28,267 nt of DNA, taken from a virus. The notes under the pieces are model-generated. The model had not been told where the DNA came from and made no database searches. It worked only from the letters and a program-made list of their open reading frames with translations. The translations under genes were made by a program, and so were the position numbers. The DNA is taken from the IMG/VR virus record IMGVR_UViG_3300044970_002154, positions 1 through 28,267 of that record. One strand, 5' to 3'. Shown here piece by piece: positions 20,605-26,923 of this stretch. The first letter of the stretch is position 1. Every line of letters begins with the position of its first letter.

Positions 20605-22682
20605 TAATCAACCGTCTTCATTGTTACAGTAATTGATCCAGCATCTTCATCGTCAATAGTTATGATTCTATTGCGGCTTGATTCAAAGTTGTTTGTTTGT
20701 GGTTTTGCAATAAGTCGGAAGATCTTTAGAGGATCCTCAATGCTCACTGGATCAAAATTGGTTAGTGTAACTTTTCCAAGCAGATAATCAATTGTCCCAG
20801 CATTTGCATTCAATGTTGTCTTAACCTTATTAGTTTCATCGATGTAGAAACTGCGAATGACGCCGTATCTGTTTTGAATATTAACAGACAATACTACAGT
20901 TGCATCAACTTCTCCAAGATATGTCACGAATGCGGTTGCAGTTGTGTAGTTTACGCCTGGATCTTCAATCTTAATTGAGGTGATCTTACCATTAACAACA
21001 ACTGCAGTTGCAATCGCACCAACACCATCGCCAGAAATGGTAACTGTTGGTGTTTCTTGATCATAGATTTTTGAGGCAGAAGTTGAAATAATTGTCACAG
21101 AATCGATTCCAGAAGATGTTCCTGGAGTTTCTTCGAAGAAACAAGAACGAAGATTAAACTCATCGTCAAATTGTTTAAATGCAGGAGCAGAATAGAATCG
21201 ATATTGAGAATCTTCGCGTGACAATGGAGTTCCAAAGTTGATTGTATAATTTCTTGCTGCGCCGACTTGTGGCGTGAAACGCTTTTCAATTACTGCAACG
21301 GCATCACTATATTCAATTGATGATTCTGAGTCGTCAATCCTACGAAGAAGACGAGAGATCTTAAATTTACTATTGAAATCGTCTAATTCTGTATTTTTAA
21401 ATGAAATGATAGAATTTCTCACTAGCGATTTAATAGAGTCCGCAGAGCGGTTAGTTTTCGTTGAGTCGAAATAAACTTCTGCAAAGATTTTGAGATAGTT
21501 GTAGTCAACATCGACGAACTCTGGTGTTACAGTTACGACCGAAACTGGTTTAATGATTTCATCAACGACCGTTAGTTTCTCGCTTTCCGTAATTTCATAT
21601 CCACCAGTTGGTTTGGCTGCAATGAAAACTTTACCATAAACTGGTGGATCGTTTTCTTCACCACCCCAAACATTTACTGATTCGAAATATGGATAGTTTT
21701 TATTGATAAGCGCAACTAAATCATTTTTTGTTACGCCGCGACCATTTGCTGCATATGATTTAGTTGATGTTGAACGAACGCTTTCAATGCTTTCTTGTGC
21801 GCCGCCACCAGAGGCTGCAGTGATTGGATAAACAATGCTATTTGTGAAGCCGCCAATTGAATCAACAACGCTGAATGCGTTTGCTTTATTTGCACTAGCG
21901 CCATCTGTGACAATGTAGGTTACAGTCACAAGATTGCCATTGGTTAAACTTCTTCCAATAACTCCATCACCGAAATAAATTTTATACTTGCCATTGCGAG
22001 ATTCATCTAGAAAATAAACAGCAGCATTTGATGTAACTGTCGTCGCGTCTGTTGAGAGAGTATATTTCTCTGTGCGCAAACTCGTTGAAGATTCCTGAAC
22101 AATAACTTCAAGACTTGCGGTATCAATTCCTGCGTCTGGCAATTCAAAATTCTGATTTGGATTATTCGTTGCATTATAAGTGAACGTATAACTCAACGGT
22201 TGACCTTGATAAATGTAAAGATCATCAAAGCAAAAACGATTACAGGTTGGGTCATAATCAACGGTTTTTGAATCTAGATTAACGAATGTGTATGAAGTTC
22301 CGTTAATTGGAAGTGACTGAAACTTTGTAAATCGAGGTAGAGTCAACGTGCTCTGAGTGCCAGTGCTTCGAATGACCTGAAGATTAACCATTGCTCTTGG
22401 AGCAACAGATGAGCGTGGAGTATATCCAAGCATCTTGGCGTGGGAAACAACCGAATCACGGAGCAATGCGGTATCTAGAAACATTTCGTTGGCAATCATA
22501 TTATTATAGAATGCCATGTAATGCGTATTATATGCTAGAATATCCAATAGAACATTAATACCAGCAGCCTCGAAATCGAAGTCGGTAAATTCTTGCTGGT
22601 CTCTAAGAAAATTCTTGAGATTATTCTTAATTTCGGTAAAGTCTAATTCCGAAACTACGAGTTTTTGGTCTGTGTTTGCCAT
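20604..22682 (-). CDS. 6: Baseplate wedge protein gp6
   Basis: A T4 gp6 homologue of 692 residues (T4: 660). The N-terminal region is the best match: 'FTEIKNNLKNFLRDQQEF', then DFDFEAAGINVLLDILAYNT at about 34-53 and 'FLDTALLRDSVVSHAKMLGY' at 68-87, equivalent to the T4 segment with FAEIKQNL, YDFEGSRLNVLCDLLAYNT and LRSSVVQAA. The middle has a baseplate-J-like pattern (YKIYFGDGVIGRSLTNGNLV near 233-252, 'AANGRGVTKNDLVALI' near 311-326). A beta insertion at about 535-597 (VTISGDGVGAIATAVVVNG, 'GVNYTTATAFV') is the same type as in gp7, gp8 and the 990-aa protein. gp6 dimers link the wedges into a ring. The ATG overlaps the gp25 stop by one base; AAAAGG lies upstream. Confidence 0.93.
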   Translation of the reverse strand: MANTDQKLVVSELDFTEIKNNLKNFLRDQQEFTDFDFEAAGINVLLDILAYNTHYMAFYNNMIANEMFLDTALLRDSVVSHAKMLGYTPRSSVAPRAMVNLQVIRSTGTQSTLTLPRFTKFQSLPINGTSYTFVNLDSKTVDYDPTCNRFCFDDLYIYQGQPLSYTFTYNATNNPNQNFELPDAGIDTASLEVIVQESSTSLRTEKYTLSTDATTVTSNAAVYFLDESRNGKYKIYFGDGVIGRSLTNGNLVTVTYIVTDGASANKANAFSVVDSIGGFTNSIVYPITAASGGGAQESIESVRSTSTKSYAANGRGVTKNDLVALINKNYPYFESVNVWGGEENDPPVYGKVFIAAKPTGGYEITESEKLTVVDEIIKPVSVVTVTPEFVDVDYNYLKIFAEVYFDSTKTNRSADSIKSLVRNSIISFKNTELDDFNSKFKISRLLRRIDDSESSIEYSDAVAVIEKRFTPQVGAARNYTINFGTPLSREDSQYRFYSAPAFKQFDDEFNLRSCFFEETPGTSSGIDSVTIISTSASKIYDQETPTVTISGDGVGAIATAVVVNGKITSIKIEDPGVNYTTATAFVTYLGEVDATVVLSVNIQNRYGVIRSFYIDETNKVKTTLNANAGTIDYLLGKVTLTNFDPVSIEDPLKIFRLIAKPQTNNFESSRNRIITIDDEDAGSITVTMKTVD

Positions 22683-23074
22683 CAGCGAACCTTTTCTAAG
22701 AACAAGTTAATTGTAACTGGAGGCTCTAGGTTATTAATAAAGAACCTAATTGTAACCGCATAACGATTTTGTTCGGGTTGCGCTTGTACACGAACGGCAT
22801 CAATACCAATACGAGGTTCAAAATTCTGAATTGTATTCTGAATTTCAGTTTGAAGAACGCTCGCCGTAATGAACGAAACGTCTTCGAATAATAGCGAACG
22901 AACGCGAGAACCAAAGGCAGGTTGGAATGGCTTTTCATATGGATTAGTGAGAATCAGGTTTCGAAGCGCACCGATAATCGCGGCATTCCCAGTACGTTTT
23001 ACAACGTCTTTTGTGACTGGATGTGCAGAGAGTCGGAGGTCGAGATCTTTATATGTTCTTACTTCAAGTGCCAT
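22682..23074 (-). CDS. 25: Baseplate wedge protein gp25
   Basis: A 130-residue member of the GPW/gp25 family, close to the T4 length of 132. The key features are a central 'ALRNLILTNPYEKPFQPAFG' at about 35-54, SLLFEDVS shortly after, and the conserved 'IQNFEPRIGIDAVRVQ' at about 86-101 containing the EPR motif found throughout the family. The last third is a beta-strand pair ending in LFLEKVR. In T4 gp25 binds gp6 and the sheath at the baseplate and helps trigger sheath assembly. It directly precedes gene 6, as in many contractile systems. It follows the 653-codon protein by 27 bases. Very confident. Confidence 0.95.
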   Translation of the reverse strand: MALEVRTYKDLDLRLSAHPVTKDVVKRTGNAAIIGALRNLILTNPYEKPFQPAFGSRVRSLLFEDVSFITASVLQTEIQNTIQNFEPRIGIDAVRVQAQPEQNRYAVTIRFFINNLEPPVTINLFLEKVR

Positions 23075-23101: not shown

Positions 23102-25063
23102 TTAGCAAGGTTTAGCGCATGGATTCTCTGGAACTGTTACATCTGGATCCTGATCATCAAGATCGCCGCCAACAGTATCGCCACCAGCACCAGTCGTCTG
23201 ACGTGGAAATGGACCAGCAATTCCGTCCAGATCGTCGAATAGATTCGTAGAAGGAATCGTCGTATCTATAATCGGAACGTTGTTTGATGAGACGTTCGGA
23301 TCATTATATTCCTTATCAAAGTCGTCTAAGATTTCAATGAAGTCGCTTTCTGTCGCATCACACCCAAGTCTATTTGGATTTGGTGCGGTGATTAGATCCA
23401 AATAATCATCCGAATCAGTTTTACTGCCGCTGTCTTTTCTCTTTTTCTTCGAACAAGACATGGAGAACAATTTGATCATTCCTGAAACAAGACCCTTAAC
23501 TTGGTTGAATACGGCGATGTCTTGTTCGATCACATTTTTAATATCGTCTTTTATTGTTCTCAACCGAGTATCTGTTTCGCTGATTCTCTGGGCAAGCAAT
23601 GAGGAGGCTAATCCGCGAATAGCGTCGTCTCGAAGATCGTATTTCATTTGATTTAAAATTTCTTTCGTTCGACGGAGCAATTCTTCTTGGAATAGAGATT
23701 GAGCGGCATCTGTTGGTTTTGATGCACTTACCGTTTGATAAGTCCCGTTCGCTCTGCGGACACGAGTTGTAAGACCATCCAATACAGTCGTGTCTCCCAT
23801 GATCTGTCCTGGAAGCGTGAAGGCAGTGATGATACCGTCTGGATCAACAAGATCTTCCGTAAGATCAAGGAAAGGCACTTCATCGACAATCTTAAAGACT
23901 GGGAATCGCGTTGTTAATCTCAAGTAATCATCAACTACAATCGCCCCATCTGTTACAGAAACAACGTTATACTCTCGATCATCGTAATAGATCTTATCGT
24001 TTGCAGACAAGTAACTGGTGAACGTAGTTCCGTTTCCTGTAATCACATTATCAAGGCAGAGTGAGTTTGCAACAAATGAGGTTTTTAGAGCGATTGTCAA
24101 GTCGCTTGATGTTGTGGCAAATGCAGTGTTAACATTAAACGATGCTTCTTTATAGAAAGTCTGACTAGATGCTGGATTATAAAAATCGAGATGCACATTT
24201 AAGAAATCACCAAGAGAGTTGACAGTGCTAACCTGACGAACTTCGTTGTTTACGCTAATATATGTTCCATTCCCGACGATTAGAGAACCGCCTGTATCAA
24301 GAAGGCAATTAGCGAGATTTAATGTTCCTACATCAGAGGATGTGACTGTGTTACCGCTTATTGTTACCGTCCCTGCTGGAGCAGCAACAAAGTTTTTTCC
24401 GATAACAATTCTTTCTAAACTATTCACAACAACAGTATCGCCAATGTTTACGACTGGATATCGAGTTGCACTTAAATTCGGGGAAACTGTATTTGTTGAT
24501 GCGATATTAACTGTTGCATTTGAAATGCCAACGTTACCGTAAATTCTTTCAAATCTAAACTTGACAGTCGCAGTTCCACCTAATCCAGAAAGATTATCCG
24601 TGTGCTCTTCAAATGATCGTACTGCTCGAGCAAGAGAATCGGCTTCATCAGCCATAGAGGTAAGTTCACCAAGCGTAAACGGACCGATCTTATAATTGTT
24701 GTTTGTATTTAAATCTTGAACCTGACCAAGTCTATTGAGCAATTCAGTTCTTGCCGAAACGATCGATGGTTCTGTATTGCTGAATAAAAGTGGGAGCGAT
24801 GCTTGAAGATTTAAATAATTATTTGCAGTAAAATATTCAAGTTCCTGATTCAGATCGTTTAAAGGAGAGGAAATGAAATTTTCGCTATTTAATTTATTTT
24901 TTAATGGATTGATGAATTCCTGCGCGAAGAAATTCTTCACCGCATTTGCAATTCTTCCGATGTCTTTTTTAATACCCGCTAAAAATTTACCTAAAGTCGT
25001 ATCTGCAAACATGCCGCCTAATTTTGCAAATGGAATGGGCTTCCCTGTAAACATGATTGCCAA
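23102..25063 (-). CDS. Structural protein of unknown family, likely made by -1 frameshift
   Basis: The first in-frame candidate start is TTG at 25063, and ATG is at 25054, but neither has a well-placed ribosome binding site (GGAGG lies 19 bases before the TTG). The frame is open upstream and encodes a hydrophobic stretch (IIKLILCLIGGLPLLQTLAI), reached by a -1 shift from the small upstream ORF; the fusion would be about 738 residues. Residues 10-160 are helical and amphipathic. About 250-330 is a beta module shared with wedge proteins. About 455-530 is a charged helical segment. Then come SCSKKKRKDSGSK, an acidic low-complexity tail and a final CAKPC. Its place between gp5 and gp25 suggests a baseplate hub or hub-assembly protein, in the region where T4 has gp26/gp51/gp28. 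No homology to these is claimed. Alternative: independent initiation at CTG 25075, which has GGAGG seven bases upstream. Confidence 0.8.
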   Translation of the reverse strand: MAIMFTGKPIPFAKLGGMFADTTLGKFLAGIKKDIGRIANAVKNFFAQEFINPLKNKLNSENFISSPLNDLNQELEYFTANNYLNLQASLPLLFSNTEPSIVSARTELLNRLGQVQDLNTNNNYKIGPFTLGELTSMADEADSLARAVRSFEEHTDNLSGLGGTATVKFRFERIYGNVGISNATVNIASTNTVSPNLSATRYPVVNIGDTVVVNSLERIVIGKNFVAAPAGTVTISGNTVTSSDVGTLNLANCLLDTGGSLIVGNGTYISVNNEVRQVSTVNSLGDFLNVHLDFYNPASSQTFYKEASFNVNTAFATTSSDLTIALKTSFVANSLCLDNVITGNGTTFTSYLSANDKIYYDDREYNVVSVTDGAIVVDDYLRLTTRFPVFKIVDEVPFLDLTEDLVDPDGIITAFTLPGQIMGDTTVLDGLTTRVRRANGTYQTVSASKPTDAAQSLFQEELLRRTKEILNQMKYDLRDDAIRGLASSLLAQRISETDTRLRTIKDDIKNVIEQDIAVFNQVKGLVSGMIKLFSMSCSKKKRKDSGSKTDSDDYLDLITAPNPNRLGCDATESDFIEILDDFDKEYNDPNVSSNNVPIIDTTIPSTNLFDDLDGIAGPFPRQTTGAGGDTVGGDLDDQDPDVTVPENPCAKPC

Positions 25064-25119
25064 GGTCTGAAGCAGCGGTAATCCTCCAATTAAGCAGAGA
25101 ATTAATTTAATAATCTTTC

Positions 25120-25317
25120 CTATGATTTTTTTAAAGAAGACACGTTACTCCCATATAAGCGTTGCTTGAGATCTAATAGTAAATTGTAGGCATCGTATTT
25201 TTGTTTTAAATCATGTTCAACCATGAACTCTTTATCTTGTTCAGACAATTGTTCATGTTTTGACATTTTTTTCATTATCAAATTATACGCCTGAACATCT
25301 TTTTGATTAATGCACAT
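25120..25317 (-). CDS. Small helical protein, donor of a putative -1 frameshift (65 aa)
   Basis: The frame is open further upstream to 25413, but that start would lie 86 bases inside the gp5 gene. The ATG at 25317, ten bases after the gp5 stop (25328), is the likelier one, although no good Shine-Dalgarno precedes it. The 65-residue product is polar and helical (QKDVQAYNLIMKKMSKHEQL, EFMVEHDLKQKYDAYNLLLD, LKQRLYG) and ends SSLKKS. The last codons TTA AAA AAA TCA TAG contain tandem slippery heptamers. Small helical proteins joined by frameshift to a longer product recall tail assembly chaperones of other phages, but those sit before tape-measure genes, and I see no sequence match. Confidence 0.7.
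   Translation of the reverse strand: MCINQKDVQAYNLIMKKMSKHEQLSEQDKEFMVEHDLKQKYDAYNLLLDLKQRLYGSNVSSLKKS
25126..25135 (-). promoter_or_regulatory. Putative programmed -1 frameshift site (TTTAAAAAAA)
   Basis: In the zero frame the codons are TTA AAA AAA TCA TAG, preceded by T. This gives two overlapping canonical X XXY YYZ heptamers: T TTA AAA (25135-25129) and A AAA AAA (25132-25126). The -1 frame continues without a stop into the 653-codon gene. A GGGAG (25152-25148) lies 12 bases upstream of the site, the arrangement that stimulates frameshifting in E. coli dnaX. A weak AT stem (25107-25102 with 25093-25088) lies 18 bases downstream. Confidence 0.65.
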
Positions 25318-25327
25318 AATATTTAGG

Positions 25328-26923
25328 TTATGGTCCAGCAGGGAAATCTGCGCCCTTGTATCCGCTTGAATCTGGCTCTGGGTTTCTTTCTGTTGAAGTT
25401 TGTGTATAGTCAACTGAGATTGGTGTTGTGCTATCCTCGTTCAATTCATTTTCTGGAATCTTCACTTCTGTTTTGACAGCGTTTGTATTCGTATCAATAA
25501 TTGCATTAATAATTGCTCCAGTCGCTGAAGGAATAGTGACTGTGTTTCCAGGAACAACTGTCGGCGCTGCAACATTCGCTGCTGCTTGCCTTTCTTTCTC
25601 AAGTTTCGAGAAAATATCAGTTTTTGGTTTTGCAGCAGCAGGTTCAACTCTCGTCAATTCGGCTGCGGTCTTCATATCTGGTTTCTGCGCAAAGTCAGCA
25701 GTTGGACCCACTTTACCAACTGCTGGAATATTTGAGGTGAAGTCTTGGATACCAGAGGTCAAAAGCAACTGTGTGATCAATTCCATCACACCACCTTCCA
25801 AGTGAACTAGTGCTCCACCCAAAGAAGTCGCACCAGAACTCTTGACAACAGTCTGAAATCCACCGTACATCTTTGCCATGTTTGATGCAGAGATGTTTAC
25901 GTCCAAACCACTCAAGTATGCGATTAATCCTGCGAGGCTGACTGTTTTACCGCCACGAATAATGGCATCTGTGGCTGCAGCCATCTGAATCTTACTTGCG
26001 GAAATCAATTCTAGATCTGCACATTCAATTCGAAGTTTACCGTTTACGCGAAGGTACATATCAGAGTCTACAGTCTCATATTTCTCGCCGTTGACATAAC
26101 TGCGATGATCGCCCATTGTTACATCATAACGACTCTTTTGAGATTTAATCTTGGTATGACCTTCAGGAAGGAATTCTAGAGTCGAACCAGTGCGATGCGA
26201 AAGTTGAACACGCTCAAATCCTTCTGTGTCATCCATTTCAAACGCATGACCTGATTCAGTTTCGGTAACATGATTGAATGGATATTGAGCATTATAAGAA
26301 GGATATGGTTCGTCCCAAGTCACGCCTCTAGCCGTTTGAATATCTGGAATGCGAGTCTTTCTCTGAATATCAATTGTTGTATTTGCAATTGAAGAAGACT
26401 CAATTCCATCATATACACCATTCGCGTTTCCACGAGTTGGGCGAGCAAGACGAGAAACTGTTGGCTCGTTTAGATTAGATGGATTTCTCTTTGCGGTATC
26501 TTCTGTAATTCGAACGCCACGACTATCTCTTCGAACCGTGGCTTCCTTAATCTTTCTTGGGAAGTCTTGTTCTGCTTTTTCTTCATCTGTATATGGATCT
26601 GTGAAGCCGAGATTGGCTTCTCGAATTTCTTCTGGAATTCCAGGGACAGTTCCGAGAATGATAGGGAAGTGTGCGATCTTACCGTCTGCAAAGAATCCGA
26701 AAACCATCGTCCCTTCTGGTGGTGGTTGTACTGCCTTTGATCCATAAGGAACAATTGGCTGTGCCCATGGAAGATCATCAATTGAAATCTGAGTGATGTC
26801 AGACGTGTGCCATCCGAAGCAACGCACTTTACATCTTCCAAGATTGAGTGGATCAAGGCGATCTTCTACGACGCCAAACCACCAAACAAAATTGTTTAAG
26901 CCAAGAAAGTCAGGACCATTCAT
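25328..26923 (-). CDS. 5: Baseplate hub/spike protein gp5-like, without lysozyme domain
   Basis: The N-terminal 95 residues are the gp5 OB fold: 'FVWWFGVVEDRLDPLNLG' at 12-29, then RCKVRCFGWHTSD, 'LPWAQPIVP' at 51-59, 'PPPEGTMVFGFFADG' and FPIILGTVPGIPEEI at 86-100. In T4 this is followed by a lysozyme domain and a triple beta-helix. Here residues about 105-215 are polar and repeat-free with no lysozyme signature, and a T4-like beta-helix start follows (GHAFEMDDTEGFERVQLSHR at 225-244, 'GDHRSYVNGEKYETV', 'MYLRVNGKLRIECADLELIS'). Residues 340-400 are Gly/hydrophobic, and the last 110 are Ala/Pro/Thr-rich. It forms the central spike on the gp27 hub. The ATG overlaps the gp27 stop by one base. 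At 531 residues it is slightly shorter than T4 gp5 (575). Confidence 0.88.
   Translation of the reverse strand: MNGPDFLGLNNFVWWFGVVEDRLDPLNLGRCKVRCFGWHTSDITQISIDDLPWAQPIVPYGSKAVQPPPEGTMVFGFFADGKIAHFPIILGTVPGIPEEIREANLGFTDPYTDEEKAEQDFPRKIKEATVRRDSRGVRITEDTAKRNPSNLNEPTVSRLARPTRGNANGVYDGIESSSIANTTIDIQRKTRIPDIQTARGVTWDEPYPSYNAQYPFNHVTETESGHAFEMDDTEGFERVQLSHRTGSTLEFLPEGHTKIKSQKSRYDVTMGDHRSYVNGEKYETVDSDMYLRVNGKLRIECADLELISASKIQMAAATDAIIRGGKTVSLAGLIAYLSGLDVNISASNMAKMYGGFQTVVKSSGATSLGGALVHLEGGVMELITQLLLTSGIQDFTSNIPAVGKVGPTADFAQKPDMKTAAELTRVEPAAAKPKTDIFSKLEKERQAAANVAAPTVVPGNTVTIPSATGAIINAIIDTNTNAVKTEVKIPENELNEDSTTPISVDYTQTSTERNPEPDSSGYKGADFPAGP

Follow-up and report, generated by a model that had tools for sequence, protein, structure and literature searches.

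Unusual ribosome entry into a large baseplate-region gene of uncultured T4-like phages, most likely by a frameshift without a known slippery site

In E. coli, frameshifting of the dnaX and IS type moves ribosomes into the -1 frame under stimulation by a Shine-Dalgarno (SD) sequence, and it shares the upstream SD, the -1 frame and the arrangement of two overlapping open reading frames (ORFs) with the phage locus described here. However, a heptamer at a suitable distance occurs only in the stretch of DNA that was analyzed, hereafter the window (28,267 nucleotides, IMG/VR virus record IMGVR_UViG_3300044970_002154), whereas the family carries neither a conserved X_XXY_YYZ nor a conserved Z_ZZN motif. 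The prfB (RF2) system, whose SD spacer is 3 nt, is alike in placing the SD 3-4 nt from the switch codon and in relying on a purely local element, but prfB shifts +1 at CUU_UGA, whereas the shift here would be -1 (equivalently +2), at GTG or CCG, and with no stop codon directly after it.

Another precedent is provided by -1 doublet decoding, which is carried out by tRNA-Ser3 at GCA and by tRNA-Thr3 at CCG or CCA (PMC12202706). The likeness lies in a -1 shift without re-pairing, and the lineages of L037 and L060, as well as L064, have CCG precisely at the switch, but the window and most lineages carry GTG there rather than GCA, CCG or CCA, and the known events are low-level. We know of no doublet-decoding tRNA described for GTG. 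Translationally coupled overlapping genes can likewise show an SD inside the upstream ORF, a stop codon near the downstream start and a conserved -1 overlap, yet 42 of the 44 junctions considered below lack a standard start at the codon where the large frame begins (GTC in the window; an NTG only in L088 and L089).

Phages also use recoding elsewhere, in tail genes and others, as the frameshifts of tail assembly chaperones and the bypassing in T4 gene 60 show. Frameshifting of the chaperone (G-GT) type precedes the tape measure gene and uses a slippery sequence, whereas the present locus lies between gp5 and gp25 and specifies another product; the literature searched contained no report of a frameshift between these two genes. 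Gene 60 bypassing joins matched take-off and landing codons across a 50-nt coding gap, whereas here the ORFs overlap. Bypassing with matched codons was rejected after inspection of all junctions revealed no shared codon pair.

The gene pair and its slot

The small ORF encodes 65 amino acids on the minus strand of the window (25317-25120) and ends in GTG TCT TCT TTA AAA AAA TCA TAG. In the -1 (= +2) frame, an open stretch begins at 25144, directly after a TAA (25147-25145), and runs until the stop codon at 23104-23102. The zero frame and the -1 frame meet at GTG/TC (25143-25139), where GTG 25143-25141, here called P1, is the last zero-frame codon and GTC 25141-25139, here called B1, is the first constrained codon of the -1 frame. 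Counted from B1, the large ORF has 679 codons (25141-23102). An SD-like GGGAG (25152-25148) stands 4 nt 5' of P1 and 6 nt 5' of B1, and the overlapping heptamers T_TTA_AAA (25135-25129) and A_AAA_AAA (25132-25126), spanning 25126-25135, are both in phase with the small ORF. The flanking genes, also on the minus strand, were identified as those for the gp5 baseplate hub (25328-26923; Gp5_OB, PHROG 430) and the gp25 baseplate wedge (22682-23074; PF04965). An earlier sequence-only reading had placed the pair in this slot, and the ORFs, heptamers, GGGAG and open -1 frame that it described were all verified at their coordinates. Sequencing error as the cause of the junction was ruled out, since dozens of independent contigs repeat it.

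Profile scans of viral contigs recovered approximately 80 loci with 44 distinct junctions, all metagenomic, whose large proteins are 33-72% identical to that of the window. No cultured-phage relative of the large or small protein was matched by tblastn in 50,697 phage records, genome contigs gave no match to either one, and Pfam, PHROGs and PDB sequences offered no convincing match. Searching with only the large-protein body brought back nearly the same set of loci, none of them in a new arrangement. In other T4-like phages (L077 and L081), the slot between gp5 and gp25 is occupied differently: Sinorhizobium phage phiM12 carries a gene for an M15 peptidase there in place of the pair, and Vibrio phage D479 carries a hypothetical gene together with one for a PAAR protein.

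The small protein, which starts invariantly with Met-Cys (25317-25312 in the window), keeps a helical domain followed by a variable linker. The large protein begins with an amphipathic KIIGKIIK and a hydrophobic LILCLIGGLPLLQTLA, and it ends with PCAKPC in the window (near 23105), a motif conserved as PCxxPC in relatives. Together with the Met-Cys of the small protein, this C-terminal motif is a possible disulfide or metal site. An AlphaFold2 model of the large protein (mean pLDDT 68.5) has an N-terminal helical hydrophobic part of low confidence, two small tandem beta-barrels (approximately residues 193-420) and, at 513-562, a long helix. Its fold matches are tail-tip barrels that are weak, mixed with unrelated barrels and not decisive; gene position and these weak folds suggest a possible tail-tip role.

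A late-promoter-like motif, (C/G/A)TAAATA, overlaps or nearly touches the small-ORF ATG in the window (25315-25330) and at the equivalent sites of relatives, and a similar motif is present 5' of gp25. A transcript from the motif might be leaderless or lack the small-ORF ATG.

Frame relation and slippery heptamer

All 44 distinct junctions show the same offset between the small and large frames, and the open -1 frame, whose conservation the sequence-only reading had considered worth checking, is retained throughout. The small ORF runs to P1 in eleven different lengths (44, 47, 48, 49, 50, 55, 57, 59, 63, 73 and 78 codons) but is always in phase. In a comparison of longer stretches that took in 57 distinct loci, it is intact and in frame through the switch codon (the 25141 position) in 55. 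The only clean exception is L091, whose small ORF is closed by a TAA (L091:2987-2989) directly before the switch on a contig that keeps gp5, gp25 and the large ORF undamaged. The small ORF of L040 has a 118-nt deletion, but this locus was dismissed as a counterexample because its gp5 is also split by a frameshift (L040:1100-1800), which probably reflects faulty assembly.

The heptamer behaves differently from the frame relation. The sequence-only reading had taken it to be the shift site, but among the 44 distinct junctions only the window has one, and the homologues mostly keep both ORFs intact, an outcome that the same reading had named as speaking against its proposal. For example, both ORFs are intact at the junctions GTG TCT TCC TAG (L002), GTG TCC TAC TAA (L003) and CCG CTT TCA TAA (L037), and the heptamer of L085 and L087 lies approximately 30 nt upstream of the junction. 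By our estimate, chance alone would place about one AT-rich heptamer in 44 overlaps, whereas the frame relation, the SD and the open -1 frame are kept in all relatives found and are therefore beyond chance. Because it is missing at all other junctions while the frame relation persists, the heptamer cannot be the conserved mechanism.

There is a small chance that -1 slippage on T_TTA_AAA or A_AAA_AAA, stimulated by GGGAG, takes place in the window lineage alone, perhaps atop a mechanism that is shared by the family and to which the heptamer may add. The heptamers are in phase and, in the window only, GGGAG lies 12 nt 5' of T_TTA_AAA, which is the spacing of dnaX-type sites. Such slippage would leave the frame relation at every other junction to be maintained with no heptamer. 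Nor was a conserved downstream stimulator of the dnaX type seen, and synonymous constraint stops after approximately codon 10. In addition, Z_ZZN is the minimal -1 motif in nearly all cases reviewed (PMC5009743) and is absent from 29 of the 44 overlaps. Since neither X_XXY_YYZ nor Z_ZZN is common to the junctions, a shift here would not be slippery in the sense that is usual for -1 events.

Coding upstream of the internal starts

The window does contain candidate starts inside the large ORF, at CTG 25075, TTG 25063 and ATG 25054, and the two genes could be ordinary and separate, with the large one beginning at one of these codons and the upstream -1 segment left untranslated. This explanation is highly improbable and is already contradicted by the following observations. 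The segment upstream of these codons, which the sequence-only reading had judged to be coding, has the substitution pattern of translated DNA in the large frame: changes from B1 (25141-25139) to before the hydrophobic core, counted in 17 separate pairs of relatives, fall 14:2:29 by large-frame codon position. It is conserved as protein (KIIK.ILCLIGG.PLLQ) and its second codon positions are nearly invariant. The hydrophobic stretch that the reading had noted ahead of any standard start is indeed encoded in the -1 frame of the window. Upstream of the switch, the same 17 pairs give 50:21:83 by zero-frame codon position. In the close relatives L019, L021, L022 and L023, the codon before B1 is free to vary in the large frame, whereas in the zero frame only Ile or Val is encoded there. 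Constraint thus changes over at GTG/TC, since the zero frame is constrained up to the switch and the large frame only from B1. Three pairs of loci (L002/L010, L022/L023 and L092/L093) share 99-100% identity over the opening 75 nt of the large ORF but only 73-82% over the last 60 nt of the small ORF; the former value exceeds what amino-acid constraint needs.

The candidate starts themselves are not conserved, and the group-11 relatives have no ATG at the equivalent site. In the window, ATG, GTG and TTG are all missing from the -1-frame segment FFKKIIGKIIKLILCLIGGLPLLQ until TTG 25063 and ATG 25054. In three loci, the first ATG, GTG or TTG lies 45, 85 or 98 codons into the large ORF. In a check of 42 loci, the large frame of 37 proved free of ATG, GTG, TTG and CTG ahead of the conserved ILCL core; the exceptions are GTG at B1 in L088 and L089, TTG in L013 and L017, and CTG in L060. 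ATG opens every other large gene of the window, mostly behind a weaker SD. Judged from these comparisons, this group of uncultured T4-like phages has diverged deeply without the large gene having a start codon that could be used. With starts lacking and the first ATG, GTG or TTG as many as 98 codons inside, ribosomes must get to the upstream segment by some uncommon path. The wider idea of the sequence-only reading, that the two ORFs are linked and the -1 frame is coding, therefore gains support even as its heptamer mechanism fails.

Recoding or initiation at the switch

An SD-like stretch (AAGGAG, GAGGAG, AGAGG or GGGAG) precedes the switch in all 44 junctions, with anti-SD pairing of -5.0 to -10.1 kcal/mol. 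Its distance is nearly fixed even though it encodes varied small-ORF residues (GS, RS, RG, EE, KE or KS). The spacing to the switch codon is 3-4 nt in nearly all lineages and longer in L088 and L089, whereas the spacing to B1 is 5-6 nt in the GTC and GCT lineages, which is also normal for initiation. Among 11 clusters formed at 60% identity, GTGTC is the sole form of the switch in six and the main form in the cluster of the window. The other forms are CCGCT, GTGCT, GTGCC, GTGCG, TTGTG and CTGTG, and the G at 25141 is invariant. Wherever B1 encodes Val the codon is GTC, except for GTG in L088 and L089, yet GTC accounts for only 17.5% of the Val codons in these genes.

Codons 1-10 of the large ORF (25141-25112), which are AT-rich and form no conserved stem, show excess synonymous conservation. 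The same-codon fraction is 0.84 (0.43 expected) over codons 1-5 and 0.62 (0.45 expected) over codons 6-10, and then falls to background. The normal ATG start of gp25, used as a control, shows no such constraint (0.45 versus 0.39 expected). Part of the excess may come from dual coding, because the small ORF overlaps the first few large-ORF codons. Folding of 70-nt stretches produced no structure common to all loci, and single-sequence folds differ; a hairpin that pairs GGGAG with CUUCC, sequestering the SD, forms in many but not all loci.

These observations point to an unusual ribosome entry into the large gene, most likely by a frameshift without a known slippery site. In the reading that we favor, the small and large ORFs would be one recoded gene. 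Ribosomes on the small ORF would reach GTG 25143-25141 (CCG in other lineages) with the strong SD-like sequence 3-4 nt upstream, and a fraction of them would carry on in the -1 (= +2) frame at or beside GTC 25141-25139. The shifted product would be a fusion of approximately 738 residues that joins the small helical domain to an amphipathic and hydrophobic helix and a tail-tip-like body, while the remaining ribosomes would terminate a few codons later to yield the short protein. As candidate tRNA steps, tRNA-Val might realign by +2 from GUG to GUC in the GTGTC lineages, and CCG might undergo -1 doublet decoding in the CCGCT lineages. That the fusion is produced, precisely which codon serves as the switch and what the tRNA does are all inferred from the sequence features described above, and we give roughly even chances to an SD-driven, non-slippery recoding that fuses the small and large parts. 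Held a little more tentatively, at somewhat below even, is a programmed frame change without codon re-pairing, in which the SD-like sequence directly behind the E site would lead ribosomes on GTG or CCG to resume in the -1/+2 frame, fusing tail-protein parts across this T4-like group.

Recoding explains the missing starts and the conservation of phase, but several findings count against it. No single tRNA re-pairing fits all junctions, with CCG to GCT and GTG to GCT, GCC or GCG pairing poorly. Full +2 re-pairing was rejected as a general step, being possible at GTGTC only and not fully in GTGCT, GTGCC, GTGCG, CCGCT, TTGTG or CTGTG. No relative was found with an in-frame fusion of the small and large ORFs. 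Furthermore, the conserved element from the SD to approximately codon 10, AT-rich and unstructured, looks like a translation initiation region.

The main alternative, which we regard as less likely, is independent and probably coupled SD-driven initiation at B1 (25141) on GTC, GCT, GCC or GCG, with the small protein separate. Through the strong SD, either a 30S subunit or a ribosome fresh from termination on the small ORF would be placed at B1, and the abnormal start codon would hold output of the large product low. Initiation explains L091, whose small ORF is stopped before the switch with the neighbors and large ORF intact, and it explains the footprint-like extent of the constraint. It also explains the GTG precisely at B1 in L088 (L088:3660) and L089 (L089:3989), where others have GTC, GCT, GCC or GCG and where the SD lies approximately 8 nt upstream; this GTG is possibly a reversion to ordinary initiation. 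The 5-6 nt spacing in the GTC and GCT lineages and the often small second residues (A, S or P) fit as well. However, ATG is found at B1 in none of the 44 junctions and NTG in one lineage only, although GTC and GTG are a single change apart, and GCT is no near-cognate start. The absence of comparable synonymous constraint at the normal start of gp25 and the retention of small-ORF phase across the switch at 55 of 57 loci likewise count against initiation.

If the two parts are fused by recoding, the family would represent a conserved class of frameshift in which the usual re-pairing plays no part, and its dozens of natural variants (GTG/TC, CCG/CT and GTG/CY) could be dissected. If they are not fused, a large structural gene would have done without a normal start codon across deep divergence, leaning on its SD instead, which would challenge the rules by which start codons are understood. 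Whichever reading holds, gene callers are likely to mis-start or split the large gene in environmental T4-like genomes.
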